Part shown: one piece after another, positions 13,333 to 62,618 of the stretch | How positions within the stretch are numbered: the stretch's first letter is position 1 | Layout: every line of letters begins with the position of its first letter | Assembly (NCBI GenBank): GCA_015178975.1 | Contig: WHVD01000236.1 | Span: 1-64,000 of the forward strand | DNA: 64,000 bases | Direction: 5' to 3' | Source: Hysterangium stoloniferum | Lineage: Eukaryota; Basidiomycota; Agaricomycetes; Hysterangiales; Hysterangiaceae | Translations under genes and position numbers: made by a program | Notes under the pieces: generated by a model | What the model was told of the DNA's origin: nothing | What the model saw: only the letters and a program-made list of their open reading frames with translations | Databases searched by the model: none

Positions 13333-16300
13333 ATGGATCGAACACCTGAGCGTAATCGGGAGGAGGAGCAAAGACAGCATAGGGCACAATTGCAAATGAC
13401 ATCTCCATCTGATCGTCATCGTCGTTTAACTGTGAATTCTAATATACCACCCCCTGCTCAACCATTCGGACATCTCCATCTTCCTGTTGGTAGAGGTCAA
13501 TCTGATAATCCATTTTTGGTTGCTCAGCCAGGTGGTTCTGCTGCAGGTGGTTCTGCTGCAGGTGGTTCTGCTGCAGGTGGCTCTGCTGCAGGTGGCTCTG
13601 CTGCAGGTGGCTCTGCTGCAGGTGGCTCTGCTGCAGGTGGCTCTGATATAGTTGGCTCTGATGCAGTGGCTGCCTTGCATAGGCAGTATTTAGCTTTGCC
13701 ACCATTAAGAAAACCTATTAGGTGGGGTCGTGGACAAGGAAATGTAGCTGCTCAGCCACAGGCACCAGGTCATAGACAAGGCAATGTAGCTGCTCAGCCA
13801 CAGGCACCAGGTCATAGACAAGGCAATGTAGCTACTCAATTGCAGCAACCGATTTTGCAGTTAGCACCACATATACAACAGGGTCATCAACCAGTAAATG
13901 TATCTGTTCAGTCACAGGCACCAATTGCCCAATTAGCACCAGACCAACATGGTCATACATCTGTACCACTGCACCATGATGCCATTCCACAATTCCAGGA
14001 ACAGGTACCCATTTTGCAGTTAGCCCCACCACAGCATCACCATCCACCTGGAAATCCAGCTGTACAATTACCACTACCACCTATTTTGCAGTGGGTACCA
14101 CAGCATCCACCTGGAAATCTAGTTCCACAACAACAACAACAGCCTATTTTGCAGTGGGCACCACCACACCATCCACCTGGAAATCCAGTTCCACAACAGC
14201 AGCACCCACCTATTGTGCAGTGGGCACCACCACAGCACCACCATCCACCTGGAAATCCAGTTCCACAACAGCAACACCTACCTATTGTGCAGTGGGCACC
14301 ACCACAGCTTCACCATCCACCTGGAAATCCAGTTCTACAACAGCAACACCCACCTATTGTGCAGTGGGCACCACCACAGCATCACCATCCACCTGGAGAT
14401 CCAGTTCCACAGCAACAACACCCACCTATTGTGCAGTGGGCACTACCACAGCTTCACCATCCACCTGGAAATCCAGCTCCACAACAACAGGTACCCATGT
14501 TGCAGTTAGCACCACTACAGTATCACCATGCTCCTGTTCATCCAGCAGTAAATGTACAGCAACAGTTACAGTTGGCCCCACTCCCAGCCATTCCTCCACC
14601 TCCAGTTATTCTCCCACTTGCCCCACCCCCAGCTATTGCCCCACCTGCAGTCAATGCCCCACCTCCAGCCATTCCAGATCCTGCAGCCATCCCTCCACTT
14701 CCACTTCCTGTTGCACAATTACCCATTGGAAGGCAGCCAGTTGTGGAGGCCAGGTTTCCAAGACATGACGTGGGACATATGAACATACAGTGTTCACACT
14801 GTGGAGCTTTACACTGGATGGAAGAGCGTCTGTCAGCTAGCTCTCGGACAACACCAAAGTTTGGCAAGTGTTGCAAGCAAGGAAAGATCATCCTTCCAAT
14901 ACTTGAACCAGTCCCTCCTACCTTAAAGTCTCTTCTTGAGGATAATACAGACAATGCCAAGGAATTTCACAAAAATATCCATGCATATAATAATGCATTT
15001 GCATTTATATCACTTGGTGTCAAATTGGATGAGTCTGTCTTGCAAGGTGGTCGGGGCCCATATGTCTTTAAAATACATGGTGGATTGTATCATGAGCATG
15101 GTTCCTTAATCCCATATGGGGAAGATGTATCACCCACTTATGCTCAGATTTACATCCATGATCCTGCACTGGCACATGAGGATGCACTGGGGAATGCATT
15201 GCAGATAAGGCAGAATCACAGGGCAAATCGGAATCTAAACAATCAAACCTTTTCTGACTTGCAGGACATGATGGAGCAATATAATCCCTTTATAGTACTC
15301 TATCGCCAGGCACATGAGTGATTGAGGACACAGGCAGAGACTCCAAGGTTACATGTTAGACTGAGCTACAAGGCTTTTACTGATCCCCAATGGTACAACC
15401 TTCCAACCGGTGATGAACTTGCAGTCATTGTGCCTGGAGATGGTGATACAGGTCAGGGTGATCCAAGGGATATTATTGTTCAGAGAAGGGGGGGGCCCTT
15501 CCATCGATTGCATGAAGGACAGGCCATTTGTACACCCCTTCATTATGTCATGCTCTTTCCCAGGGGTGAGTGTGGTTGGTCATGGGACATTCCCTATGCA
15601 AATAACAATTGGCAGCCCCAGGCTATACAGCAGCATGAACAAGCTGAGGAAGAATACAAAAGTCGTAAGGTGACCCAGCGTGAATATTATGCCTATCGCC
15701 TATTTCTTAGAGCAAATGAAGCCAAAACCATTTTTTATGCACAAAAGCTGTTCCAACAGTACATTGTTGATGCCTGGGCAGTCACAGAACAGAGCAGATT
15801 GAAGTTTCTGAGTGAAAATCAACCAAGGATACGTGCAGAACTCTACAACCAGGTCGTTGATGCTTTTTCAAATGATGATATCAATCCCAATAGTATCGGT
15901 CAGAGGGTCATACTCCCTTCTTCATTTACTGGCGGTTCAAGGGATATGAGGCAAAGTCTGCAAAATTCTTTTGCAATTGCACGCAAGTATGGCAATGCCA
16001 GCTGCTTCATCACCATGACTGCTAATCCCAATTGGGAGGAGGTCACCCGTGAATTGCTTCCTGGCCAGACCCCTGCTGATCGCCCTGATTTGGTCTCACA
16101 TGTCTTTGCTATCAAAAAGGCTAAAATGCTGAAAATGATTACAGAGGGCCATATCTTTGGTAAAACAGTAGCACATATCCATGTCATTGAATTCCAAAAG
16201 CGGGGTCTTCCACACATGCACTGTCTTATATGGTTTGAGGAGCAGGATAAGCCAAGGACACCTGCAGATGTCGATTCAATTATTTCTGCCTGTTTTCCAG

Positions 16301-18976
16301 ATCCTGAAACACATCCCAGACTATTTAATTTAGTAGGTCAACTCATGACCCATGGCCCCTGCGGTCTTCATCATCCAAATGCTGCCTGTATGGCCAATGG
16401 TACATGTGGTAAATTCTTCCCAAAGGATTGGTGTGAAGCCACCATTGTCAACCAGGAAGGCTATCCATTCTACCTTCGTCCCAACAATGGGAGGGTTTAT
16501 GTAACTCCCAAGTTTACATATGACAACAGATATGTTGTTCCTTACTCTCCTATTCTGCTTCTCACCTTTGAGTGCCATATCAATGTCGAGTTGGTCTTTA
16601 CCAATAGATCAATGAAGTATATGCATAAATACTGTTACAAAGGCCCCGATCGCACAACTATGGAGGTTGGAAAGACACCAGATGAGATTAAACAGTATCT
16701 TGATGCATGATATGTTAGTGCACATGAGTCTGTCTGGCGATTACTGCGCAATGAACTCCACACCCAGGTTCCTGCAGTAATGGCACTTCGTGTCCACCTC
16801 CCTGGGGAAAACACTGTCATTTTTGATGCTGATCAGGGTCCTGCTGAGGCTTTACAAAGGGCAGAGTGTGCTGGCACAACTTTAATGGCTTATTTTGAAG
16901 CTAATGCCAAGGATCTTATTGGCTACAATGGTCGCCGTGCCAGGGACACATTGTATATGGATTTTCCCAAGTATTTTACATTTGTAGCTAGGACTAAATC
17001 ATGGAAGCCACGTCAAAGTGGTTTTTCCATAGGACGCATCCATTTTGTCAATGCTGCCTGTGGTGAAAGATTCCACCTCCGTACATTGCTCACTGTCATC
17101 CAAGGTGCCACCTCATTTGAAAATCTAAGGACTTTTCAGGGTGAGACCCATCCCACATTTCAACAAGCCTGTGTTGCACGTGGTTTGCTTGAAGATGATC
17201 GCCAGTGGAACATGTGCCTCAGAGAAGCCAGTCGCATACAGTCTGGCCTTCAACTTCGCAGGTTGTTCGTCATCATTTTGACCATGTCCTCCCCTGCACA
17301 ACCTCAAGAACTCTGGGATGAGTTCAAAGAATTTATCTGTGATGATTTGGACTGGATCCTGAGGGTTACATATAACATTGAACAATGCAGCACCTCACAC
17401 AATTTATGACTTTGGTCTCTATCAGATTGATAAAATCCTCCGCTATTCTGGAAAGTCTCTTTCACTCTATCCAACCATGCCACACATCAATGAGAATTGA
17501 GATCAGTTCATTGGCAATCGTCTCATTAGGGAGCAGAAGAATTATAATCTTGATCATGAGCATGCCAGTGCCCAAGCCAATCTTGAAAAGTTCAATCCTG
17601 AACAACAAGTGGCTTTTGACACTATCATCAAGGCAGTTGATGAGCAGCAGGAGGGCAAAATGTTCTTTGTCAATGGCCCAGGTGGCACTGGCAAGTCCTT
17701 TGTATGGAATACTCTTGCACATGCATGTCATGCCAAAGGCTACATTGTCCTTTGTGTTGCCTCATCTGGAATTGCATCAATGATTCTCAAAGGTGGTCGC
17801 ACCTCTCATAGCATGTTTGCAATTCCTGTTCCCTGTGAGAAGAACTCCTCATGTCACATCAAAAAGGGCTCAGAAAAGGCAGAGCTTATGAAGCAAGTAC
17901 GCCTCATCATCTGGGATGAAGTTCCAATGCAGTCACATTGCATATGTGAGGCAGTCGACAGAGCTCTGAGGGATGTATTAGACAAAGATGCTCTCCCCTT
18001 TGGAGGCATTCCTGTTGCCTGGGGAGGTGACTTCCAGCAGACTTTGCCTGTTGTACAACGTGCCTCTAAAGAACAGATTATTGGTGAATGTATTCAAAAA
18101 TCTCAACTCTGGAACCATGTCAAGGTACTTTTCTTGAAAAAGAATATGCGGGTTGATCAGCATGATCCACACAGTGATCAATTTGCTCAGTGGCTCTTAG
18201 ATGTAGGCCATGGAAAGGATTTGCCTTTGGATCATACAATGGATATCCCTCCTCATATGATCTGTGGTCCAGAAATATCTGATCTAATTGCTGAGATATA
18301 TCCAGACATCCATGTGGATGGAGACCAAAGAGATTGGCAAGATGGAGACTTCTTAGACCGTGCTATTCTGTGTCCCAGGAATTCAGATGTGGAAGAAATT
18401 AATTCAGAACTTCTGAATAGATTCCCTGGAGTGAGTCGTGTCTACCACAGTGCTGACACTGCAGAGGGTGACATGGAGGCAGAAGTCTATCCTGTGGAAT
18501 ATTTAAATAGTCTCAACTTTGGTGGAATTTCACCAAGTCGACTTGAGATGAAGCCAGGAGTACCTTTAATGCTACTACGGAACATAGATCCACAGATGGG
18601 ACTTTTCAATGGTACAAAATTGCGACTACTGAAAATGGAAAATCATTTGCTTTTGGTGCAGATCTTAACTGGACCATGTGCTGGGGAAGAGGCATTTATT
18701 TCAAGGATTAAAATCATTACAAATGATGATGAACTCCCTTTTAAACTTCATCGGGTTCAGTTTCCAGTACGACTGGCATTTGCAATGATGATTAACAAGT
18801 CACAGGGACAATCTTTGAAATTAGTAGGATTAGATTTGAGAACGGCTGTGTTTGGACATGGGCAATTGTATGTGGGACTTTCAAGGGGAAGAAGTTGGAA
18901 TAGGGTTAAAATATTATTAGAGAAGGAGTCAAAGAGAACTGCAAATATAGTGTACAAAGATGTATTATTAGATTGA
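13333..18976 (+). pseudogene. Helitron Rep/PIF1-helicase, copy 2, three stops and a frameshift
   Basis: ATG 13333 opens the same MDRTPERNREEE start as the other copies. The N-terminal region has about eight Gly-Gly-Ser-Ala-Ala units and an expanded Pro/Gln/His region in which a 25-27 residue module ending in QWAPP recurs. Rep HMH, two-Tyr and Walker A motifs are present. Disabling changes: TGA at 15319-15321 (CGA in copy 3), TGA at 16708-16710 (CGT in copies 1 and 3), a frameshift between about 17360 and 17400, and TGA at 17498-17500 (TGG in copies 1 and 3). The helicase end reopens to the normal C-terminus. Clearly the oldest of the three. Confidence 0.88.
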
Positions 18977-20713: not shown

Positions 20714-23700
20714 ATGGATCGAACACCTGAGCGTAATCGGGAGGAGGAGCGAAGGCAGCATAGGGCACAATTGCAAATGACATCTCCATCTGATCGTCAT
20801 CGGCGTTTAGCTGTGAATTCTAATATACCACCTCCTCTTCAACCATTCCGAGATCTCCATCTTCCTGTTGGTAGAGGTCAATCTGATAATCCGTTTTTGG
20901 TTGCTCAGCCAGGTGGCTCTACTGCAAGTGGCTCTGCTGCAAGTGGCTCTGCTGCAAGTGGCTCTGCTGCAGGTGGCTCTGCTGCAGGTGGCTCTGCTGC
21001 AGGTGGCTCTGCTGCAGGTGGCTCTGCTGCAGGTGGCTCTGCTGCAGGTGGCTCTGCTGCAGGTGGCTCTGCTATAGTTGGCTCTGATGCAGTGGCTCTT
21101 TTGCGTAGGCAGTATGAAAATTTGCCACCATTACAACCTCTTAGGCGGGGTCGTGGACGAGGAAATCCAGCTGCTCAAATTGTCCAATCTGCACCAGTCC
21201 AGCATAGTCATCCACCTGTTAATGCCATGCCACACCTCCAGGCACAGGTACCCATTTTGCAGTTAGCCCCACCACAGCATCACCATCCACCTGGAAATCC
21301 AGCTGTACGACTACCACCACAACCTATTTTGCAGTGGGCACCACCACAGCTTCACCAACCACCTGGAAATCAAGTTCCACCACCAGCACCACCACCACAA
21401 CAACAACAACCTATTTTGCAGTGGGTACCACCACAGCTGCACCATGGTCATCCACCTGTTAATGCCATGCCACAACTCCAGGCACAGGTACCTATTTTGC
21501 AGTTAGCCCCACCACAGCATCACCATCTACCTGGAAATCCAGTTCCACAACAACAGCTACCTATTTTGCAGTGGGCACCACCACAGCTTCACCATCCACC
21601 TGGAAATCCAGTCCCACAACATCAGGCACAGGTACCCATTTTGCAGTTAGCTCCACCACAGCCCCACCATCCACCTGGAAATCCAGTCCCACAACTTCAG
21701 GCACAGGTACCCATTTTGCAGTTAGCCCCACCACAGCCCCACCATCCACCTGGAAATCCAGTTCCACAACAACAACAACCACCTATTGTGCAGTGGGCAC
21801 CACCACAGATTCACTATCCACCTGGAAATCCAGTTCCACAACAGCAACAGCTACAGTTAGCCCTACCTCCAGCTATTCCCCTACTCCCAGCTATTTTACA
21901 GCCTGCAGCTATGCCTCCACCTCCACCTCCACCTCCCATTCCACAATTACCCATTGGACGGCAACCAGTCGTGGAGGACAGATTCCAAAGACATGACTTG
22001 GGACGTATGGACATACAGTGTTCAGACTGTAGAGCTTTACACTGGATGGATGAGCGTATCTCAAATAGCTCAAAGACAAATCCAAAATTTGGCAAATGTT
22101 GCAAGCGAGGAAAGGTGGCCCTTCCAATACTTGAGCCAGTCCCTCACACTTTAAGATCTCTACTGGAGGGTAATACAGACAATAGCAGGGAATTTCTCAA
22201 GAATATTCGTGCCTATAATAATGCTTTTGCATTTACATCACTGGGTGTCAATTTGGATGAGTCTGTCTTGCAGGGTGGTGGTGGCCCATATGTCTTCAAA
22301 ATCCATGGGGAATTGTATCATCAGCATGGTTCCTTGATTCCTTATGGAGAGGGTGTATCACGTAGTTATGCTCAGCTTTACATCCATGATCCTGCATTGG
22401 CACAGGAGCATGGACTGATGCAGGCATTGCAGCAGAGGCAGAATCACAGGGCAAATAGAAGCCTAAACAACCAAACCTTTTCTGACTTGCAGGATATGAT
22501 GGAGCAATATAATCCCTTTATACAACTCTATCGCCAGGCACATGAGCGATTGAGGACACAGGCAGAGACTCCAAGGTTGCATGTTAGGCTGAGCTACAAG
22601 GCTTTTAATGATCCCAGACGGTACAACCTTCCAACTGGTGATGAACTTGCAGTTATTCTTCCTGGAGAGGGTGACACAGGTCGTGGTGATCCAAGGGATA
22701 TTATTGTTCAGAGGAGGGGGGGCCAGTTCCATCATGTCCATGAAGCACAAGCCATTTATACACCCCTTCATTATGTCATGCTCTTCCCCAGAGGTGAGCG
22801 GGGTTGGTCATGGGATATTCCCTATGCAAATCAAAATTGGCAGCCCCAGCCTGGACAGCAGGATGAAGAAGGTGAAGATGAAGAAAAAAGTCGGAAAGTG
22901 ACCCAATGTGAATATTATGCCTATCGCCTATTTCCCAGAGCATACGAAGCCATGACCCTTTTTTATGCACAAAAGTTATTCCAACAGTATATTGTCAATG
23001 CCTGGGCAGTAACAGAGCAGCGCAGATTGAGATTTCTCAGGGATAATCAACCAAGGTTACGTGCAGAACTCTACAACCAGGTGGTCGATGCATTTACAAA
23101 TCAGGATGTCAGTACAGATGCCAATAGTATTGGCCAGAGGGTCATACTCCCTTCCACATTTACTGGCAGTTCAAGGGATATGAGACAAAGTCTACAAAAT
23201 TCATTTGCAATTGCACGCAAGTATGGCAATGCCAGCTGCTTCATCACCATGACAGCCAATCCCAAGTGGAAGGAGGTCACTGATGAATTGCTTCCTGGAC
23301 AGACTGCTGCTGATCGTCCTGATTTGGTCTCCCGTGTCTTTGCTGCCAAGAAGGCTAAGTTGCTCAAGATGATTACAGAGGACCAGATATTTGGGAGAAC
23401 AGTTGCCCATATCCATGTCATTGAATTCCAAAAGCGGGGTCTTCCACACATGCACTGCCTTATATGGTTTGATGACCAGAATAAGCCAAGGACACCAGAA
23501 GATGTTGACTCATTTGTTTCTGCCTGTTTTCCAGATCCTGAAACACATCCCAGACTATTCAATTTAGTAGGTCAACTCATGACCCATGGTCCCTGTGGAG
23601 CTGAACATCCAAATGCTGCCTGTATGGTTGACAAGAAGTGCAGTAAATACTATCCAAAGGATTGGTGTGAAGCCACCATTGTCAATGAGGAAGGCTATCC

Positions 23701-26206
23701 AACATATGCTCGCCCCAACAATGGAAGAGTTTATGAAACTCCCAAGTTTACATATGACAACAGACATGTTGTCCCTTACTCCCCCATTTTGATTCTCACC
23801 TTTGAATGCCACATCAATGTTGAGTTGACCTTTACCAATAGGTCAATGAAGTACATGCATAAATACTGTTACAAAGGGCATGATCGTACAACTATGGAAT
23901 TTGGAAGGACACCAGATGAGATTCAACAGTACCTTGATGCACGTTATGTCAGTGCACATGAGTCTGTCTGGCGGTTAATGCGTAATGAACTCCACACCCA
24001 GGTTCCTGCAGTAATGGCACTTGGTGTCCATCTCCCTGGGGAAAACACTGTACTTTTTGATGGTGATCAAGGTCCTGCTGAGGCTTTACAAAGGGCAGAG
24101 CGTTCAGGGACAACTCTCATGGCCTATTTTGAAGCTAATGCCAAAGGTCTCATTGGTTATAATGGACAGCGTGCCCAGGATACATTTTATATGGATTTTC
24201 CTGAGTATTTCACATTTGTACCCAAGAAGAAATCATGGAAGCCACGTCAAAGTGGCTTTTCAATAGGGCGTATTCATTTTGTCAATATTGCCAGTGGGGA
24301 AAGATTCCACCTCCGTACTTTGCTCACTGTTGTCAAAGGAGCCACCTCATTTGAACAGCTCAGGACCTTTCAGGGTGAGACTTATCCTACATTTCAACAA
24401 GCCTGTGTGGCACGTGGTTTGCTTGAAGATGACCGCCAGTGGCATATGTGCCTCAGAGAAGCCAGTGGTATACAATCTGGGTTTCAACTGCGGAGGTTAT
24501 TTGCCATCATTTTGACCATGTCCTCCCCTGCACAACCCCATGAACTCTGGAATGACTTCAAAGTTTTTCTTTGTGATGATTTGGAGTTCATACTTCAGCA
24601 AACACATGGTATTGTCAATCCATCACCAATCCAAGTTTATGACTTTGGTCTCTATGAAATTGATAAGATCCTACGCTATTCTGGAAAGTCCCTCTCACAC
24701 TATCCAACCATGCCAAACTGCACTGATAATTGGGATACCATTGTTGGCAACCGTCTCATTAAGGAGCAAAAGAGTTATAATATTCAACATGAGCTTGCCA
24801 GTGCCCAAGCTAATCTTGAAAAGTGCAATCCTGAACAACATGCTGCCTTTGAGACTATCATGAAGGCAGTGGATGAGCAACAAGAAGGCAAATTGTTCTT
24901 TGTCAATGGTCCAGGAGGCACTGGCAAGTCCTTTGTATGGAATACTTTGGCACATGCATGTAGGGCCAAGGGCTACATTGTGCTTTGTGTGGCATCCTCT
25001 GGAATTGCATCAATGATTCTCAAGGGTGGTCGCACTTCTCACAGCACATTTTCAATCCCTGTTCCCTGTGAGAAGGATGCTCTATGTCATATCAAAAAGG
25101 GATCACAAAAGGCAGAACTCATGAAGGAAGTGCGACTGATTATCTGGGATGAAGTTCCTATGCAATCACGTTTCACATGTGAGGCAGTTGACAGAACCCT
25201 AAGGGATTTATTAGACAAGGAGGATCTTCCCTTTGGGGGGATTCCTGTTGCCTGGGGAGGTGACTTCCAGCAGACTTTGCCTGTTGTACCCAAGGGTTCA
25301 AAAGAACAGATCATTGGACAATGTATCCAGAAATCAGAACTCTGGAAGCATATTAAGATACTATTCTTGAAAAAGAATATGCGGGTGGATCAGGATGATC
25401 CAGAAAGTGAACAGTTTGCTCAGTGGCTCTTAGATGTAGGCCATGGAAAGGATTTGCCTTTGGATCATACAATGGATATCCCTCCTCATATGATCTGTGG
25501 TCCAGAAATGTCAGATCTAATTGCTGAGATATATCCAGACATCCATGTGGATAGAGACCAAAGAGATTGGCAAGATGGAGACTTCTTAGACCGGGCAATT
25601 CTGTGTCCAAGAAATTCAGAGGTGGATGAGATTAATTCAGAACTTCTGAATAAATTTCCAGGGGAGAGTCGGATGTACCACAGTGCTGATACTGCAGAGG
25701 GAGACAGCGAGACAGAGATGTATCCTGTAGAGTATTTGAACAGCCTGAACTTTGGTGGAATCTCTCCGAGTCGACTTGAGATGAAGCCAGGAGTACCTTT
25801 GATGCTGTTACGGAATATAGATCCACAGAGGGGACTTTTCAATGGGACACGATTGCGACTGTTGAAAATGGAAAATAATTTGCTTCAAGTGCGGATCCTA
25901 ACTGGACCATGTACTGGGCAACCAGCATTTATTTCACGGGTGAAAATCATTACGAATGATGATCAACTGCCATTTAAACTGCATCGTATTCAGTTTCCAG
26001 TGCGGTTAGCATTTGCAATGACTATTAACAAGTCACAGGGACAGTCTTTGAAGGTGGTGGGAATAGATTTGAGAATGGCAGTATTTGGACATGGACAATT
26101 GTATGTGGGACTTTCAAGAGGAAGAAGTTGGAATAGGATAAAAATATTATTAAAGGAGAAAAAGAGAACTGCGAATATAGTGTACAAAGATGTATTATTA
26201 GATTGA
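20714..26206 (+). CDS. Helitron Rep/PIF1-like helicase, intact, 1830 aa
   Basis: Initiates and carries rolling-circle-like transposition: the Rep part nicks and joins one DNA strand, the helicase unwinds it. Visible in order: basic Arg-rich start; Gly-Ser-Ala pentapeptide repeats (about residues 70-125, a 15-bp DNA repeat); Pro/Gln/His-rich module repeats with LQWAPP or LQLAPP (about 150-415); a CX2C...H...CC zinc-like segment (about 436-463); the Helitron Rep core with HUH motif HMH at 912-914 and catalytic tyrosines in YMHKYCYKG (1047 and 1051); PIF1-type helicase with Walker A GPGGTGKSF (about 1399), DEVPM (about 1478), GGDFQQTLP, and INKSQGQS/GLSRGRSW near the end. ATG 20714 was chosen because the same MDRTPERNREEE start is kept in all copies; a further in-frame GTG lies 18 bases upstream. 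No stop or frameshift seen. Confidence 0.93.
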   Translation: MDRTPERNREEERRQHRAQLQMTSPSDRHRRLAVNSNIPPPLQPFRDLHLPVGRGQSDNPFLVAQPGGSTASGSAASGSAASGSAAGGSAAGGSAAGGSAAGGSAAGGSAAGGSAAGGSAIVGSDAVALLRRQYENLPPLQPLRRGRGRGNPAAQIVQSAPVQHSHPPVNAMPHLQAQVPILQLAPPQHHHPPGNPAVRLPPQPILQWAPPQLHQPPGNQVPPPAPPPQQQQPILQWVPPQLHHGHPPVNAMPQLQAQVPILQLAPPQHHHLPGNPVPQQQLPILQWAPPQLHHPPGNPVPQHQAQVPILQLAPPQPHHPPGNPVPQLQAQVPILQLAPPQPHHPPGNPVPQQQQPPIVQWAPPQIHYPPGNPVPQQQQLQLALPPAIPLLPAILQPAAMPPPPPPPPIPQLPIGRQPVVEDRFQRHDLGRMDIQCSDCRALHWMDERISNSSKTNPKFGKCCKRGKVALPILEPVPHTLRSLLEGNTDNSREFLKNIRAYNNAFAFTSLGVNLDESVLQGGGGPYVFKIHGELYHQHGSLIPYGEGVSRSYAQLYIHDPALAQEHGLMQALQQRQNHRANRSLNNQTFSDLQDMMEQYNPFIQLYRQAHERLRTQAETPRLHVRLSYKAFNDPRRYNLPTGDELAVILPGEGDTGRGDPRDIIVQRRGGQFHHVHEAQAIYTPLHYVMLFPRGERGWSWDIPYANQNWQPQPGQQDEEGEDEEKSRKVTQCEYYAYRLFPRAYEAMTLFYAQKLFQQYIVNAWAVTEQRRLRFLRDNQPRLRAELYNQVVDAFTNQDVSTDANSIGQRVILPSTFTGSSRDMRQSLQNSFAIARKYGNASCFITMTANPKWKEVTDELLPGQTAADRPDLVSRVFAAKKAKLLKMITEDQIFGRTVAHIHVIEFQKRGLPHMHCLIWFDDQNKPRTPEDVDSFVSACFPDPETHPRLFNLVGQLMTHGPCGAEHPNAACMVDKKCSKYYPKDWCEATIVNEEGYPTYARPNNGRVYETPKFTYDNRHVVPYSPILILTFECHINVELTFTNRSMKYMHKYCYKGHDRTTMEFGRTPDEIQQYLDARYVSAHESVWRLMRNELHTQVPAVMALGVHLPGENTVLFDGDQGPAEALQRAERSGTTLMAYFEANAKGLIGYNGQRAQDTFYMDFPEYFTFVPKKKSWKPRQSGFSIGRIHFVNIASGERFHLRTLLTVVKGATSFEQLRTFQGETYPTFQQACVARGLLEDDRQWHMCLREASGIQSGFQLRRLFAIILTMSSPAQPHELWNDFKVFLCDDLEFILQQTHGIVNPSPIQVYDFGLYEIDKILRYSGKSLSHYPTMPNCTDNWDTIVGNRLIKEQKSYNIQHELASAQANLEKCNPEQHAAFETIMKAVDEQQEGKLFFVNGPGGTGKSFVWNTLAHACRAKGYIVLCVASSGIASMILKGGRTSHSTFSIPVPCEKDALCHIKKGSQKAELMKEVRLIIWDEVPMQSRFTCEAVDRTLRDLLDKEDLPFGGIPVAWGGDFQQTLPVVPKGSKEQIIGQCIQKSELWKHIKILFLKKNMRVDQDDPESEQFAQWLLDVGHGKDLPLDHTMDIPPHMICGPEMSDLIAEIYPDIHVDRDQRDWQDGDFLDRAILCPRNSEVDEINSELLNKFPGESRMYHSADTAEGDSETEMYPVEYLNSLNFGGISPSRLEMKPGVPLMLLRNIDPQRGLFNGTRLRLLKMENNLLQVRILTGPCTGQPAFISRVKIITNDDQLPFKLHRIQFPVRLAFAMTINKSQGQSLKVVGIDLRMAVFGHGQLYVGLSRGRSWNRIKILLKEKKRTANIVYKDVLLD

Positions 26207-29816: not shown

Positions 29817-30684
29817 TGTTATGACCGGACAATCCCGCCGGACTCCGGGCACTAACCCGTACGCCCCCACGCACTACAAGCACCAATCATCTGTTTATAG
29901 GATTTCCTGCCCAGACTCTGTTACGTCAAGACTCGTTATGTTCGACCTCATTACGAAACATATCAGTCACCGGACTTCCCCCAGACTCTGTCTCTGTCTA
30001 TGTCCGTCTTCGTCCCACACATCAGTCACTGGTCCCCACTTAGAATCCCATCACCACTCTAATCGAGCCCCGTTCCCGTTTTAGTCAAATGACCTGTCAC
30101 GATTTAGGACTCCGCTCCCACTCCATTTCCCGTTATGGGTTATGCTTTGTCACGATTCGGACTCCGCTCCGTTCCGTCCCATTCCTAACACCAATTTGGT
30201 GTTTACTATTCCCATTTCATGTTTTGTTAGTTTCGTTTCATTATTACTGGATTTGGTATGTCATGCATTCCACAGTCTATATAAACTGGCAGATGTTGTA
30301 CATACAATCCAGTCAGAAAATTAGCTTAGATTCCCCCCAGTAATCTAATAATATTTTCCGCTCTAAAACCTTACTCGATTCACATTGCTCGCACTAGTTG
30401 GGGCCCACAGGCTCTGGCACATCTACCTCTCTCAACCAACTCGACTTACGACCCACGACCCCCAACCTACAACCCACGACCTCCGACTTACGACCTACAA
30501 CCCACGACCTCCGACTTACGACCTACAACCCACGAACCCCGCCCGGACTCCCCGGGATCCCCGTCCGTCTGTTTGAAATTGGACAACACGATCTAGCGAG
30601 GGCGCAGCCTATAAGCTGAAGCCAAGTCCTACCGGATATCCCGCAGGTTTCTCCGGAAACCCGGCCTGTGTGTGTATCCTAACA
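29817..30684 (-). repeat. Solo LTR with target duplication GACAG
   Basis: 868 bp, ends TGTTATGACC and TATCCTAACA, flanked by GACAG at 29812-29816 and 30685-30689. Its right end shares about 55 bp with the LTR at 3446-4777, which sets the sense as minus. It contains the conserved block (30600-30630) found in twelve places in this window. Pyrimidine-rich ACGACC repeats lie at 30440-30540. No internal region: a product of LTR-LTR recombination. Confidence 0.88.
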
Positions 30685-31239: not shown

Positions 31240-31499
31240 GTGGGGTGGTAGCATCTATCACTCGACCTCCGACTCATCTCCACCTGACCCCTTGACTTCC
31301 ATGGGATTCTCACAGTCAACCCTCTGACCTCACAACCCACCAACTGCTCCTGGACTCCCTGGGATTCCCATCTGCCCATCAGACATTGGATGACATGATC
31401 TTGTGAGGGCACAGCCTATAAGCTAAAGCCAAGTCCTACTGGCATTCCCACAGGTTTCTCCAGAAACCCTCTGATAAGCTCCATGCACACCTCTTAACA
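31240..31499 (-). repeat. LTR fragment
   Basis: Resembles the solo LTRs at 29817 and 61824 over their U3-proximal third, including the conserved block (31405-31438), and ends CTCTTAACA at 31499. The rest of the LTR is missing. It directly adjoins the Tc1/mariner fragment. Confidence 0.65.
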
Positions 31500-33273: not shown

Positions 33274-33997
33274 TGTTACGACCATGTCGCAACCCTATCG
33301 GTCCTGAGGTTATTGCCACTTATCAACGTTTCAAGTCACCATCTCAGAAACCATCGGCCCCGAAGCTGACATATGTTTTCGCGAAGATCAAACTCCATTT
33401 ATGCCCATGTCAAAATAACTCGTATTGTCTGGTCAAACTTTTGATACGTCCCCTTTATTATGTTGATCCATTCAACCTTATGTTTCACATATGTCTATCT
33501 ATATTTGTAGTCCTTGAACTATTTCCTTTTATCGTAATTACGCTCTCGGTTATCATCGGCCTCCAAACTAATCATAAACTTCCCGTTCCTAGTCAAGCTT
33601 ATTGTTAATGCCATTTTCCGCCCTTCTCCCCATTAGTATTTTCTAGATGCCTGTTACTTGTATATGAACCCACTGTAGTTGTAGTTACTAGGCAATCAGA
33701 ATATTGACTCAGAACACCCTCATACGCCTGTAATAGTCTCATACTAAGAATCCCCCCATCCGCCTCCGCGTGTGCTCGCCCACTCCCAGCCCTGACCCCT
33801 AGGCCCGACGCTCGACTTGTCCTTCAGTTCCGATCGGTATATCGCCGAAAAGAGCTCTTTAGGATTAGTCTTCACCCACCCGAAATCTAAGGACACCCTA
33901 CGGATATTTGCGAGGGCGCAGCACATAAGCTGAAGCCAAGTCCTTCCGATCGGACCCTGTTGGCCACCGACATTAGTCAGTTTTTCAGTTCTTAACA
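33274..33997 (-). repeat. Solo LTR with target duplication GTATT
   Basis: 724 bp, ends TGTTACGACC and TTCTTAACA, flanked by GTATT at 33269-33273 and 33998-34002. Same family as 62645-63188 judging by the shared GACCATGTCGCAACCC-type start and by the block at 33912-33943. Sense minus by the block's orientation. Confidence 0.88.
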
Positions 33998-35482: not shown

Positions 35483-35487
35483 TATTG

Positions 35488-36308
35488 TGTTAGGACCAGA
35501 AAGCCCGCTGGGCTCCGGACTCCGTCCTACATGCACCCAACTCACTATATCAAGTTACAGCTAAACCAGAAAACCTGTTGGGACCCAGATGTCAAGCCTG
35601 TCCATGCCCAACCCTCTGTTTCTCATGCACCAGTCATTGGACCCTGCTGGGACCCACACACATCAAAGCCTGTCTATGTCTGACCCTGTTCCATGCACCA
35701 GTCACGGGGCTCTGCCTGGATAACGTGACAGCTCTCTAACTGAGCCCTGTTCCCATTATGGTCAAATGACCTGTCATGTTTTGGACTCCACCTCCATTCT
35801 GTTCCTAATACCTAGTTTGGTGTTTACTCATCCTGTTTCATGATTACTTGTTTAGGGTTTCATTATTACTGGATTTGGTATAACATACATTCCACAGTCT
35901 ATATAGTCTGGCAGATGTTGTACATACAATCCAGTCAGAAAATCAGCTTAGATCTCCCCAGTAATCTCAGTATATTTTCCACTCTATTCCACTCCTCTCT
36001 TTTAAACACACAACTATTTACCTCATTGGAGCCCACAAGCTTTGACCTACTGTATGTATCCATCACTTGACCTCTGATCCATCGCCACATGCCCCCCTGA
36101 CCTCATTGGAGCCCATGGTCTTCCTGACTGGTCTTTCGACCTATCAACCCCTGACCTATCTACTACACCCTGGGTTTCCCGACCACCTGTTTGAAATTGG
36201 ATGCTACAATCTCATGAGGATGCAGCCTATAAGCTGAAGCCAAGTCCTACTGGAGTACCTGCAGGTTTCTCCAGAAGCCCTCTGCTAAGCCTTGCACACA
36301 ACTTAACA
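35488..36308 (-). repeat. Solo LTR A of an inverted pair
   Basis: 821 bp, ends TGTTAGGACC and ACTTAACA. Left flank TATTG, right flank GGTGA: no target duplication of its own, but see LTR B. Contains the conserved block at 36216-36250. Confidence 0.85.
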
Positions 36309-36537
36309 GGTGACTAGAATAAGGAAAATGGAATAGACCTTAACAGTACAATCTACAGTTGAATAGACTAGATTAAGTAGAGTTAAGATGAAGGCTATCC
36401 ACCCTAAGAAGTAGGACGAGTGAGGAGTGAGGCAATCAATGAGTGAATTTGCATGAAGAATTCTACACTTTGACTGTAAAAGTACAAAATGGGATGTTCA
36501 AGTTTGAGTATGGCTATTTGAGATGGCTGAGACAATA
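36309..36537. other. Inverted segment between two solo LTRs
   Basis: 229 bp bounded by GGTGA at its left and CAATA at its right. Flipping it would restore perfect 5-bp target duplications on both neighbouring LTRs (TATTG for A, TCACC for B). Confidence 0.85.
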
Positions 36538-37180
36538 TGTTAAGTTGCATGCAGGGCTTAGTGGAGGGTTTTGGGAGAAACCCACAGGTATTCCAGTAGG
36601 ACTTGGCTTCAGCTTATAGGCTGTGCCCTCATGAGATTGTAGCATCCAATTTCAAACAGGTGGATTGGAAACCTGGGGAGTCCAGGTGTAGTAGATAGGT
36701 CAGAGCCTGTGGGCTCCGACAAGATAAATAGCGGTGTGTTTCAAAGAGAGGAATAGAGTGGAAAATATACTGAGATTACTGGGGAGATCTAAGCTGATTT
36801 TCTGACTGGATTGCATGTACAACATCTGCCAGACTATATAGACTGTGGAATGTATGTTATACCAAATCCAGTAATAATGAAATCCTAAACAAGTAATTAT
36901 GAAACAGGACGAGTAAACACCAAACTAGGTATTAGGAATAGAATGGAACAGAGGTGAAGTCTCAAACATAACAGTTCATTTGACCATAATGGGAACAGGG
37001 CTCAGTTAGAGAGCTGTTGGGTTATCTGGGCAGAGCCTGGTGACTGGTGCATGGAATGGGGTTAGACATAGACAGGCTTTGATGTGCATGGGTCCTGGTG
37101 AAGTTTGGTGACTGATGCATGAGTTAGTCGGGTACATGTAGGATGGAGTCTGGAGCCCAGTGGGTTTTTTAGTCCTAACA
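36538..37180 (+). repeat. Solo LTR B of an inverted pair
   Basis: 643 bp, ends TGTTAAGTTG and AGTCCTAACA, opposite in direction to LTR A. Left flank CAATA, right flank TCACC. Block at 36598-36632. Shorter than LTR A by about 180 bp. Confidence 0.85.
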
Positions 37181-38157
37181 TCACCTCTAACAACTGTACA
37201 GTTGCTGATGGTGACTACTACTACTTAATACTTGCTTGTATTGTGCTTTGACAATCAATACACTTGTATTGTACCTAGATCATATATTGAATAGTTAGAA
37301 TTCTTATGACTCTTCACATGTGGTTCTGAAGATGCTTGTCTAGACCTCTTCTGAACTTCATAACAATCACTCATCTCTCTATATACCTTGCTTCAGCAAT
37401 CAATTCTTCAAAATGATTTGTAGTCATCAGGATGAACAACTACTCACCTAGCAGAGGGATATCCAAAGAGAAAAGGATTAGGGGGGGAAGGCCTCTGCTA
37501 CATAGGTGTTTCAAAATATGGGGTCCTAAAAACAGAGTGACAATCCACCCCAAATAATCCACCTTAGAATATTCCTAGAGGGTGGAACAACTATCTGAAA
37601 ATATGAGAAAATTACAGGGAACTATATAAAAGAACCTCTAAGGGTTAAACTAGTCAAGGGAATTTATAAAAGAGCTGGTGACCCCAGAGGGGTAGTTGAG
37701 ACTGTAAATAATTGGAAATGGGTTGAGAAGAAAAAATACTGAAACTGAAAATCCAAGGGCTTGAATGTCCCCTTACACTCACTGTGTGGGTGCCACACAC
37801 TGCTGTGAGGGGTGTCGCGAAAAGTGGACAATTGCCGCGAAAATACATGTTAGCTTCAAACTAAAACATAGCAATATTTTGAATAGTCATACTCAAAATA
37901 CCATTTTAAATCATATAAAAGGGGCTAATTCACAATTTTGAACATTAAAGCCCAGTCTTAAAGTAAATTGCCAGGGCCAAGTACACAGATTGATTGTTAT
38001 GTTATGAAGAAGATATACAAAACTATATCTATTTTATGCTAGTTAAATGCGTGTTTAAGGGCACTTTGAGGTGTTCGGGCGTGACACCCTGCGCGGCACT
38101 TTCCCATTGTTCGTAGTATACCGTCTGTACAAGACCTGACGAACAGACGTGTAGACC
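37181..38157. other. No gene recognised
   Basis: AT-rich up to about 37800, then more balanced composition towards the gene island. No convincing frame. Confidence 0.3.
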
Positions 38158-38376
38158 GCTCAAAGCTCACAATGCAGGGGTGAAGAGCGCATAATTATCA
38201 CAATAGAAATGCCTATAAAAACAACTGATGTCTAGGGGGGGTTAAGAATATCAAGCGAGGACAATGCTCAAAGCTCACAATGCAGGGGAGAAGAGAGCAT
38301 AATTATCACAATCGAAATGCCTATAAAAAAAAACAACTGGTGCCTAGGGGATTAAGAATATCACGCGAGGACAATG
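38158..38376. repeat. 108-bp tandem duplication
   Basis: Two copies, 38158-38265 and 38266-38376, sharing CTCAAAGCTCACAATGCAGG, an ATAATTATCACAAT core and a GCGAGGACAATG end, with a few substitutions and small indels. Confidence 0.8.
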
Positions 38377-39867: not shown

Positions 39868-41219
39868 TTAAGCACCGGCAACGAACGCCCTGCCTTTCTC
39901 GATGTTCTTCTTGAGCTCGGGAAGCGCAGCCTTGATAAGCTCCACTTCCTCTGGGGAGACCTTTCCGAGTTCATGAATCTTCTCAACACCTTCAGTCTAT
40001 TAGTGGAAACACGACGGACGGTCAGTAAGTGACGAAGCGACACAGTCAAAAATGCCACATACTCCAAGCTCGACATTACTCGAGAAGAAGTCGATTCCTT
40101 CACTCTTGTACAATGGGCTGTACACGAATGTCGGAGTGACAATGCCCTTCTCGCCCTTCAACGCCTTCAAGAGCGAATTGGTAAACTTCGCAGCAGCATA
40201 CGCCATACTCAAAGTCGCGCTCCCCGCACCATCCTTAGCCTTCACAACCTCATCGCCTCCATACTGAATACGATGAACAAGCGCTTTCCAGGCCTCGCTT
40301 CCAAGTGGCGCAGCAGAGCCTGCGGGGGTCTGCGAGATGAGAGGAACGATGGTGACGCCAGAGTGTCCGCCGATGACGGTGACGGGGGTAGCTACGGGGT
40401 CGGTGCCTGCGATGCCGCTGAGGAAGCGCGAGGCGCGGACGACGTCGAGGGTGGTGATGCCGAAGAGGCGGCGGGGGTTGAAGACGCCGGCTTTTTCGAG
40501 GACGGAGGCGACAATCGGGACGGTGCTGTTGACGGGGTTGGAGATGATGAGCATGTGGGCGGTGGGGGACACGCGTGCGACGGCGGCGGCGAGGTCGCGG
40601 ACGATGCTTGCGTTCGTCTGTGGGATGGAGGAGGCAATATTAGAGGTGGGTTGGCGGTGGTGTTATGGGGAACTTACGTTGAAGAGGTCGTCACGAGTCA
40701 TCTGGGACATGTGAGGAGACGTTGGTGCAGAAAAAATGATCACTTACACCAGGCTAGATGCATGAAAGGACAAAAAGTCAACACTGCAATGGGAAATATA
40801 TTTGTAGAATCAGCACACCTTCCTCGGGACACCAGCGGGAATAACAACAACCTCAACATCTTTCAACGCAGCATCCAGCTGGTCCGAAGTATATCCAATA
40901 ACCTACAAGAAAAAAAGAGCCGTTTAAACACAATTCAGTGCTGATCTCCCAGAACCAAGACTGCCCGAAAGAAACACACCTCACTTGCAGTGTCAACATG
41001 TCCAACGTCCGCAGCAACACCCGGCGCGCCCCTAATATCATATAGACTCAAGCTCGACACAAGAGGGTCGGACTTGAGCAGCAGAGATAGAGGCTGTCCA
41101 ATACCTCCACCAGCACCGAGTACAGCAACCTTTGTCGATCGCAACGATGAAGTGGAAAATGCGCGGGTCGATGTTAAGAGGGTAGAGCGAAGGGCTGAGC
41201 GGGCTGAGCGAGCGAGCAT
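39868..41219 (-). CDS. MDH: Mitochondrial malate dehydrogenase, six exons, 345 aa
   Basis: Interconverts malate and oxaloacetate with NAD in the TCA cycle. Exons on the minus strand: 41219-40980, 40902-40819, 40753-40748, 40701-40678, 40617-40063, 39996-39868; all junctions GT-AG and in phase. Residues 1-28 are Arg/Ser/Thr-rich without acids, a mitochondrial presequence. Then the NAD-binding GAGGGIGQ (35-42), the substrate-binding Arg segment VPRKPGMTR (106-113), ISNPVNS (144-149) and the catalytic His in GGHSG (about 203). C-terminal [13 protein letters not shown] is typical of the mitochondrial form; total length fits the family. The third exon is only six bases (Pro-Gly). The last acceptor was placed so that TEGVEKI matches the family's PEG/PNG stretch. 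Intact. Confidence 0.95.
40748..40753 (-). other. MDH: 6-nt microexon in malate dehydrogenase
   Basis: Minus strand GCATCTAG, CCTGGT, GTAAGTGATC: an acceptor, six coding bases (Pro-Gly, phase 0 on both sides) and a strong donor. The two residues are needed to complete the conserved VPRKPGMTR motif and are not supplied by the neighbouring exons. Flanking introns are 65 nt and 46 nt. Confidence 0.88.
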
Positions 41220-47044: not shown

Positions 47045-49920
47045 TCATCCCACTTTCCTCCTCATAGGTAACGGCAAAATTTTCCCCTGAGTTTGTATAG
47101 GTGAGGTCTCGTCCCGAGAACGCTCGGGCGCAAGTGGCGGCGGGGATGGGGGCGGCGCGACCACAGCCTGAGCCAATGGGTGGGGCTCTCCATTGTCAGG
47201 AATATCCATCGCGGGTCCTCCGTCAGAAACGGCAGCTTTCTTTTTCTTCTTCTTCTTCTTTTTCTTCTTGCCGTCGCTCGTCGCCGGTTCGGCCGCTGCC
47301 TGTTCGGAAACTGGCTCATCGACTCCCGACTGTTCCTCGGCCTTCTCCCCTTCTTCAGGGATCTCTTCAGTTTCAGCTGGCCGGAGAACGGCACTAGGAG
47401 AGATCTCCGCGCCTTGCTGGTCTTCTGTGTCCCTCCCTGCCGGAAGACCCGGGCCAACCTGTAAAGTGAGTTGTTATCCCGTCAATCAGTAATCCATCAA
47501 CGGACAATGCCATAAGCCATGACTTACCGAATCTCCAGAACGATTCATTGATATGTTCACCATTGCCCACATATTTTGAACGCTGTCAATGAGTATATGG
47601 ACTGTATCTAAAGACTCGAATACAAGGAACACTCACGCCGCGGTATATTCCAGCATGGGATCATAACTTTCTGGAGGCATCCCACGGCTTTGTTTCTCTT
47701 CTGTTTGTTCGACTACAGAAAGACTTGGTTCGCTCGGCGGGTTTTGGGCCACCTATAGGGATGTTTCAGATTATTATTATTATGGTACCCTATAGTCCGA
47801 TGAACCTACACTTACAACATTCCTCCCGATGATGTCCATGAACTCATTCATGGCTCCAGGAAGTGTTCTAAGACTTCCAAATGCGATAAGGCGCTAGATG
47901 AACGATTCAGAAAAAAATCACACTTACGCAACAGATCCATCATCACCCCCAAATTCTGGGCCTATGTTGGTATGTCCCACTGTTGGACTTGCGGAAACGG
48001 TCGAGGCCACGGCCGCACCCACAAACGAATCCGTCATAGATCCTTCTTTGGCGGGTACAGGCGCATAGTTGTTTTTTAGCATATCTACTCCCTCGGCTCG
48101 CTCAAGAACGACGTTTTGAGGAATGTCCACTTCCCTCTGTTCTTCGGTTTCCTTGCTGGCCGGAAGATTCACCTCGCTCGTCAGATTCGAGCCAACCTGT
48201 AAAACGATATGTTATTCGTCAATTTGTGCCATATCAACAAAGAATTATATAAGCCTTCACTCACACAATTCACAGAGCAATTTATGAACACGTTCGCGGC
48301 TGGAACCACATCTTCAATGCTGTTAAATGACATAAGACACTAACTAAACGATTTGGATACGAAGGGAACTCACACAATGACTTTTTCTTCAGTGTGGGCT
48401 GGCTTAAGATCAACTTCTGGAAGCCTTGATATGCTTCCAGAAGTTGATCTTAAGCCAGCCCACACTGAAGAAAAAGTCATTGTGTGAGTTCCCTTCGTAT
48501 CCAGATCGTTTAGTTAGTGTCTTATGTCCCTGCAACCAATATTCAATGAGAATTAAAACTTTAATAAGATGGGACTCACAACTGTGGGCGTGTTGCGATC
48601 TGTGGTGAATACTGGAGCCCCAGACTCATATCCATAAGTGATTGGCATATATCTGGGATTTTGTTCACATATTCCGAACCAACTAAAATGTTGAAGATCT
48701 CTGTCGCTATGGCGGCATGGTCGTCCCATGTACTTCCTTCGCCCCAGGTAAATATTGGCGGAAGGGCAACGACACGATAAACGGTGCGTCCGGTGTAACG
48801 CAAAATTCCATCTAGTTCATCCTCATCCAGATATCTGCACAACACATTTCAAACCTGATTACAAGGATAGCTAGTAACCAGACGCATACTGAGGTGTCCA
48901 GGGCGAAGGCAGGTCTCCATGAAAGGACTTGTCTAAAAAGAGGTGCATTTTGTTTCCAAGTTCATATATGAAGCAAATTTTGATTAGCTCACCTTTTTCC
49001 TTATCGTCACCGCTGTACAAATACTCTGTTATATCATTTTATTCGGATAAATAGAGTATAACTTACGTTGTCGGCCTCTCATGCTCTGTGATACCAACTG
49101 GTACAGACTTTGATCCTAAATTTCATAAGCGTTAATCTCCACAATGACAAAGGCTAAGAGATAAGTAGCCCATTACCTTCTCCGACTGTCTGATCATCCA
49201 TCTCTTCAATGTTCACTAAGGTAGCATCAGTGCTCGCAAACGATGAATCGACTTCACATGGCACATCGTGAATGCAGGGAACTGCTGGGGGCATTTCCGG
49301 AAGTGTCTCAGACGTACCTGCGTTGGGCATGCGTTCAGCTTTTCATCCCAGAAATCTCACAAAGGAATGCTTTAAAACGTACCAAAGGCCATGACATGGA
49401 GATCCTTATCACTGGGAGGTTGCGATTGTTCCGGTACAGCACGTTCCATGAAGTCGAGGATGTTCGCAATAGGTCGTTTACCAAGTGCAGATGGGCTTGG
49501 GGCGGATGTGGGGTGATCTGTTTGTATGCTGATATCAACAAGAACCTTTTTGGGCGTGGCGGGATGATTGCTGTCACTGAACTCTGGACCATCTTCTTGG
49601 GTGGGAGCGATATTGGCATTGAGTATTTTAATAATACCATTAATAAATATAGGAAACAAACCGGAATGTGCCGTGTTGTTACCGATTATGTAGCGCTGGG
49701 GAAGGGTGGGGAGAGGTATATATTGTTGTTTTACTGTAAGGTAAGTAGATATATTCAAGACAAGTGTTCCTGAACGAACCTAACACCCCACCATCTGATC
49801 TTACCTGCCCGGTGCCGTCAATACCTTTCGCCGCTTCCGCTTCCTGGTTCTTCACATCTGAGATCGACTATTTCTGCATTGCCGACCTTAATATTACCTT
49901 TTTCCTTTCTGATTCCGCGA
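47045..49920 (-). CDS. Intron-rich hypothetical protein gene with duplicated exons
   Basis: 3' half modelled with confidence: exons 48374 (donor side) upward unresolved, then 48319-48265, 48196-47928, 47867-47816, 47752-47637, 47582-47528, 47458-47045 (stop TGA at 47047-47045), all in phase with 52-73 nt GT-AG introns. The last exon has an acidic stretch, a Lys tract of eleven or twelve residues (near 47240-47275) and a Pro-rich end: a likely disordered, possibly nuclear protein. Upstream exon candidates: 48834-48580 (LDEDELDGILRYTGRTVYRV, the only globular-looking part), about 49320-49180 and 49760-49390, and 49880-49810 (SDVKNQEAEAAKGIDG). The 5' end is unknown. The 55-nt exon and the one after it occur twice. 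Family not recognised. Confidence 0.55.
48329..48528. repeat. Near-perfect palindrome, 96-bp arms
   Basis: Arms 48329-48424 and 48433-48528 with an 8-base centre and about one mismatch (GATTTGG versus GATCTGG). The left arm contains an exon end (LPEVDLKPAHTEEKVI) and its donor GTGAGT on the minus strand; the right arm is its inverted duplicate. Confidence 0.92.
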
Positions 49921-55861: not shown

Positions 55862-56230
55862 TACATACTATTTGCTTGTTTCAAAATACTGGAGCACCCC
55901 AACAGTTCATGTGAGGGTGCAACAAATAAGTTGAAGCCAAGCTCCACTTGTCCTGTAGAACCTAGTTAGGTATGTTCTAACTTTATGGACCCCCAGAGCC
56001 CATCCTATTTATCCCTAGAAACCCCCCTTGTTTAGACTTTAAGAACCTTCAACCTTAGACTTAGGGCTCCAATTATTAGGTAAGTGTTGATTGACTTATA
56101 GATTTTCTTGCTTGTTTGAAATACTGGAGCACCCAGACAGTTCAGATGAGGATGCAACACATAAGTTGAAGCCAAGCTCAACTTGTCTTCAGAACTGGAC
56201 CCAGTTAAGTATGTACAGACCTCCCAGTCT
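55862..56230 (-). repeat. Two tandem LTR-block remnants
   Basis: Two related copies about 240 bp apart (55865-55980 and 56100-56215): GTTTCAAAATACTGGAGCACC or GTTTGAAATACTGGAGCACC, then the conserved block (55911-55947 and 56147-56182). A third is at 32345-32450. They represent a further diverged LTR subfamily or a piece of one. Confidence 0.55.
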
Positions 56231-56825: not shown

Positions 56826-57633
56826 TGAGAAAAATGAAAATGTTCCGTGAGATTTATGTACATTATTTTAATGGACTCTAATGGAGGACGATGAATTCAC
56901 GGAACATGTCCTTGCGTCACAGAAGGCGGGTTTTCAAACGTGTCTAATTATCCAATCACAACTCCGACGTAAAAATACAAGGCAGAATTTTTGTATCTTA
57001 TTTATTGAGAAACGTTCAACTTCACACTAGACCCAGACTCACGTGATTCCTCCGGACCGCGATAACCAAGGTGTAACGACAAACGTGGCGACCCATCGAT
57101 CTATCCTTCATCACGCCAGAGAGTCTTCACCGTGGACGTGTAGTATCCGGGTGGCTCTATCTGTGAGTGCTGACGAAGTTCTCGTTGTATCCCAATGCCT
57201 CTCGTAAAACCCGGAAGTCTCTGAGGTCAAGTTGCCTCTTGCGCTCCTCTTCTTTTCCCGGGTCACAGGGATAACTTCCGGGTTTTACGAGAGGCATTGG
57301 GATACAACGAGAACTTCGTCAGCACTCACAGATAGAGACCCCAGATACTATATATGCACGGTGAAGACTCTGGCATGATGAAGGATAGATCGATGGGTCA
57401 CACACTTTGGTTATCGCGGTCTGGGGGAATCACGTGGGTCTCGGTCTAGTGCGAAGTTGAATGTTTCTCCATAAATAAGATACAAAAATCCTGCCATGTA
57501 GTTTTACTAGTAGACACGTTTGAAACAACCGCCTTCTGTAACGCAAGGACATGTGCCGTGAATTCATCGACCTCCATTAGAGGTCCATTAAAATAATTTA
57601 CATACATCTCATGTAACATTTTCATTTTTCTCA
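56826..57633. repeat. Large foldback (inverted repeat)
   Basis: Arms 56826-57218 and 57274-57633, 55-bp spacer. Matching ends include TGAGAAAAATGAAAATGTT outside and CTCGTAAAACCCGGAAGT inside; identity is high near the centre (GTGAGTGCTGACGAAGTTCT shared) and drops outward with several indels. No terminal target duplication seen. The right arm's minus strand has an 81-codon open stretch (57691-57446, MKMLHEMYVNYFNGPL) that is broken in the left arm. Foldback element or inverted segmental duplication. Confidence 0.8.
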
Positions 57634-61823: not shown

Positions 61824-62618
61824 TGTTAAGGGTGTGTACACGGAGGGTTTCCAGAGAAACCCAGTAGGACTTGGCTTCAGCTTATAGGCTGCACCCTCGC
61901 GAGATTGTCTTGTCCAATTTCAAATGGGCAGATGGGAATCCTGGGGAGTCTGGGCAGGGGTCATGGGTCAAGAGGTCGGGGAGTCGAGATAGATAAGTCA
62001 GAGGTTGAGTGATAGATGCATCGGAGCCTGTGGCCTCCGACTAGTAAAAGCGGTGTGATTCAAAGAGGAATTTAGAGCAGAAAATATACTAGATTACTGG
62101 GGAGAATCAAAGCTGATTTTCTGACTGGATTGTATGTACAACATCTGCCAGACTATAGACTCTGGAATGAATAACATACCAAATCCAGTAAAAATGAAAA
62201 CAATACTAACAAACATAAAATGAGATAAATAAACACCAAACTTGGTGTTAGGAACGGGATGGAACAGAGTGGAGTCTGAATCATGACAGGTCATAAAACC
62301 ATAATGGGAATGGAGCGGGAGTGGAGTCTGAATTGTGACAGGTCATTTGACTATAACGGGAATGGGGCTCAGTTAGAGGGCTGACAGGTTTTCCGAGTGG
62401 GGTCCGGTGACTGATGTGTGGGACAGGGTCAGAGATAGACAGGGATGGAGTCTGGCAGGTATTCCAGTGACTGATACATGAAGGAATGAAGTCAAACATG
62501 GACAAGTCTGACATATGGAGTCCGGCAGGAATTCCAGTAAACTGACAATTGGTGTGTATAGGGTGTGGGTGCATATAAGTTAGTGCCCGGGAGTCCCACT
62601 GGAATTCCGGTCATAACA
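61824..62618 (+). repeat. Solo LTR with target duplication GTTGT
   Basis: 795 bp, ends TGTTAAGGGTG and CGGTCATAACA, flanked by GTTGT at 61819-61823 and 62619-62623. Block at 61865-61900. Closest to 29817-30684 (both end in the GGTCATAACA type). An internal ACTGATAC/ACTGATGTGTG motif recurs near 62410-62480. Confidence 0.9.

Follow-up and report, generated by a model that had tools for sequence, protein, structure and literature searches.

Two long terminal repeats (LTRs) of one family, LTR A and LTR B, lie in opposite orientation 229 bp apart in the window, which is the whole stretch of 64,000 nucleotides analysed here, and the 5-bp target duplications at their ends are exchanged between the two copies. 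The simplest account is that the 229-bp spacer was inverted by a crossover between the two opposed LTRs, a reading to which we assign a probability of roughly 0.8.

Structure of the inverted LTR pair

LTR A is an 821 bp repeat at 35488-36308 on the plus strand, beginning with TGTTAGGA and ending with ACTTAACA; it is taken as a solo LTR, as no partner LTR of the same orientation lies beside it. LTR B, a 643 bp member of the same family at 36538-37180 on the minus strand, is likewise taken as solo. The start TGTTAGGA and the end CTTAACA are common to both repeats, each in its own direction, and the TGTTA/TAACA LTR ends are intact at all four junctions. The spacer occupies 36309-36537 and is probably inverted relative to an earlier state; the letters and coordinates of the arrangement were checked and are exact. 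Read on the plus strand, LTR A is bordered by TATTG on the left (35483-35487) and GGTGA on the right (36309-36313), while LTR B is bordered by CAATA at its 3' end (36533-36537) and TCACC at its 5' end (37181-37185); TATTG is the reverse complement of CAATA, and GGTGA is the reverse complement of TCACC. TCACC also forms the outer end of a near-palindrome at 37181-37214 with 17-nt arms that are 76% complementary and have no spacer, and for this reason GGTGA is found again 29 bases to the right of TCACC.

Termini of the form TGTTA...TAACA are found in four copies of the family, LTRs A, B, C, and D, and blastn matches link the copies within the window. LTR D (29817-30684, plus strand) is flanked by the direct duplication GACAG/GACAG and LTR C (61824-62618, minus strand) by ACAAC/ACAAC; perfect direct 5-bp duplications are therefore present in both further copies of the family that could be recognised as complete in the window, which makes the A/B pair the odd one. 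Two partial copies without one end, E (from 42052) and F (31249-31499), were left out of the duplication scoring, as were shorter matches at 33912-33944 and 56146-56176. In the pieces that match, the likeness of LTRs C and D to A and B is only about 71-79%.

Exchanged target duplications

The flanks of LTR A agree with each other at 1/5 bases, and so do those of LTR B; when the flanks are exchanged and reverse-complemented the agreement rises to 5/5 for both comparisons, or 10/10 bases, confirming to the base the swapped flanks that the initial annotation had described. With the 5-bp length set by the other family copies, base composition puts the chance of both exchanged matches at 1.1e-6 and the squared empirical 5-mer match rate puts it at 1.6e-6, each for one pair whose places are fixed by the LTR ends; random draws of four places gave both matches in 3/3,000,000 cases. 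An earlier estimate of about one in a million is thus borne out, although all of these figures treat one given LTR pair and leave any LTR pairs screened beforehand uncounted. When the A/B geometry was slid along the window, both exchanged matches occurred in 1/61,800 placements, this being the real one; at least one exchanged match occurred in 149/61,800 placements, and both own-flank matches in 0/61,800.

Proposed history of the locus

Two LTR retrotransposons of the same family would have inserted in opposite orientation at two targets separated by 219 bp, TATTG and TCACC, and each insertion would have made a 5-bp duplication; the flanks are observed, and the order of events is reconstructed from them. 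Each element would have been cut down to a solo LTR either before or after the inversion, as the missing partner LTR suggests. A crossover between the inverted LTRs, likeliest in the block of LTR A that is most alike to LTR B (35858-35990), would then have flipped everything between the crossover points, leaving each LTR flanked by one copy of the TATTG duplication and one of the TCACC duplication. Two opposed insertions followed by one crossover, a single conservative event, would cover all four flanks. As reconstructed, the arrangement is an inversion scar for which no function is demonstrable. It is doubtful that the spacer still flips between the inverted LTRs in living populations; if it does, both orientations would segregate, and the site would serve as a gauge of how often short-range inverted repeats recombine in this genome.

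No second copy of the spacer or its flanks was found in the window (blastn, E up to 10), where the spacer matched over stretches of 11-26 bases only; for relatives in IMG/VR, a single exact-pattern scan returned 0 matches. Composition was considered as a cue to the original orientation of the spacer and set aside: its purine content is 63% on the plus strand against 52% in each 500-bp flank, which favours neither orientation.

Divergence of the two LTRs

LTRs A and B share 638 ungapped aligned columns, of which 555 are alike and 83 differ; 65 of the 83 differences are transitions and 32 are of the CpG-decay type, a spectrum that suggests decay of the two LTRs through cytosine methylation or a RIP-like process. 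The gap in length between the two repeats is made up of two longer stretches absent from B, one per half; the indels form no clean mosaic, since a longer stretch of A is missing from B in both halves. The inverted arm pair formed by A and B measures 202 nt and is 97% complementary. Identity peaks at 98-100% at A positions 378-497, and LTRs C and D are also most alike there (90%). Gene conversion of the alike block was entertained as an explanation of this peak; it is not required, because the peak shares its bins with the C-D maximum.

A crossover within the LTRs would be expected to leave left/right chimeras, and copies C, D, E, and F served to polarise the 83 differences between A and B; after the 32 CpG-type differences were dropped, 4 of the remaining 51 were tied and 47 were scorable. 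The best switch in polarity lies between A positions 439 and 516, which is within the most alike block or at its border. To the left of this break 13 sites place the relatives with A and 9 with B; to the right the counts are 3 and 22, respectively. A permutation test that allows for the choice of break gives p of 0.0099-0.011 on the 47 sites, and 0.23-0.24 on the 33 sites that are left without zone 556-700 of A, where indels make the alignment doubtful. The Fisher p at this break, which was picked before the test, is 0.0016 when all sites are counted and 0.034 for the reduced set of 33. Among five other pairs, C-D (p 0.003) and A-C (p 0.019) show switches of similar or greater strength that also fall below 0.05 on all sites; A-D (0.11), B-C (0.75), and B-D (0.74) lie above it. 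Only C-D among these pairs is free of both A and B, and its break falls near the LTR end where alignment is poor. The polarity test does not discriminate, and the weak switch is not counted as support for chimerism; for a mosaic to be demonstrated, the window offers too few relatives, and these have diverged too far.

Alternative explanations

The alternative that survives best, though it is unlikely, is an assembly artefact in which the spacer was misjoined by way of the alike block, the real chromosome having ordinary direct duplications at both LTRs. In this block A and B are identical, in inverted orientation, over runs of 68 bp and 64 bp with one mismatch between them, and assembly from words shorter than these could have turned the segment round, producing an identical signature that includes chimeric LTRs. 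However, any read exceeding these runs in length (about 70-135 bp) would resolve such a block, and ordinary reads would normally span it; furthermore, the window contains no N, and it runs gap-free through the exact repeats, as long as 122 bp, that Helitron copies share.

Integration at two sites at once is a far less probable source of the pattern. Two retrotransposon DNAs would be joined simultaneously to two staggered cuts with the spacer inverted at insertion, so that each element bridges both targets and no later recombination is involved; this would carry the hybrid-insertion model of DNA transposons over to LTR elements. Such an event should yield the same exchanged duplications. Hybrid insertion by DNA transposons is described as having an outcome that closely resembles, to a striking degree, the one left by ectopic recombination, the exception being that its copies are identical and not chimeric (PMC2775673). 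For LTR elements, a single event would have to involve two elements and make four strand transfers, at two sites; moreover, A and B are unlike copies from one burst because they differ at 83/638 columns, although later decay adds differences.

Chance, by which two old solo LTRs would have lost their true duplications to decay and acquired accidental exchanged matches, can practically be dismissed: short duplications could have mutated between repeats this diverged, but the probability is about 1e-6 for fixed places and both other complete copies, C and D, keep perfect duplications. Inversion by crossover between the opposed LTRs is accordingly preferred as the simplest account; the recombination between inverted LTRs that the initial annotation had proposed is supported on this ground, and by its match to a published diagnostic pattern.

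Surroundings of the LTR pair

The content of the window is eukaryotic, with three Helitron-type coding regions: one at 20714-26206 is a single ORF of 1830 aa with Helitron_like_N and PIF1 domains (Pfam), while those at 6102-11750 and 13333-18976 are split into three and four ORFs, respectively, and were recognised by likeness to the region at 20714-26206, judged by eye, and by shared exact runs. One ordinary host gene was recognised in the part of the window that was annotated, a C-terminal piece of malate dehydrogenase at 40000-40554 on the minus strand. Two tandem units at 38158-38376 have pieces 108-112 bp apart that are 91-94% alike. Inverted repeats at 48354-48503 and 57155-57337 have exact arms of 71 and 64 bp, respectively, and match small foldback or MITE-like elements in size.

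Comparison with known systems

The closest published parallel is inversion 2z3 of Drosophila buzzatii, in which two Galileo (Newton) copies in opposite orientation carry exchanged target site duplications; both copies are chimeric, and ectopic recombination is concluded to be the cause (PMC2775673). In both systems opposed elements of the same family bound an inverted segment, the duplications are exchanged as reverse complements, and other copies of the family have perfect direct duplications (PMC2775673). The two differ in that 2z3 involves a DNA transposon with 7-bp duplications and a polymorphic chromosomal inversion, whereas the A/B pair involves LTRs, 5 bp, and a segment of 229 bp; in addition, non-inverted chromosomes were sequenced for 2z3 and chimerism was supported there by a maximum chi-square test (P<1e-7), while the A/B inversion is read from one sequence alone (PMC2775673). 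The A/B case is thus an instance of a documented process with an established mechanism, and its pattern and logic are already in print for Galileo.

A literature search, covering mainly the open literature with most subscription journals outside it, found no LTR case of exchanged duplications, and within the same scope the wording of exchanged or swapped TSDs was found in Drosophila papers only. Recombination between LTR elements after insertion is recognised by REANNOTATE, whose description states that target duplications survive when a solo LTR forms within one element (PMC2672092). By its own account, REANNOTATE leaves target duplications unchecked and better detection of inversions for the future (PMC2672092). 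Genome-wide, inversions of the A/B sort could be counted by scanning for LTR flanks that match those of a neighbour in reverse complement.

Mismatched flanking duplications were reportedly taken as a trace of inter-element recombination for human endogenous retroviruses by Hughes and Coffin in 2001, and are said to have been read in the same way for plant solo LTRs by Devos et al. in 2002. In contrast to those cases, the A/B locus has both reciprocal products side by side, and because they adjoin, the event is readable as an inversion from one sequence; the pair is a compact example of inverted-LTR recombination, with both products legible without a second genome.
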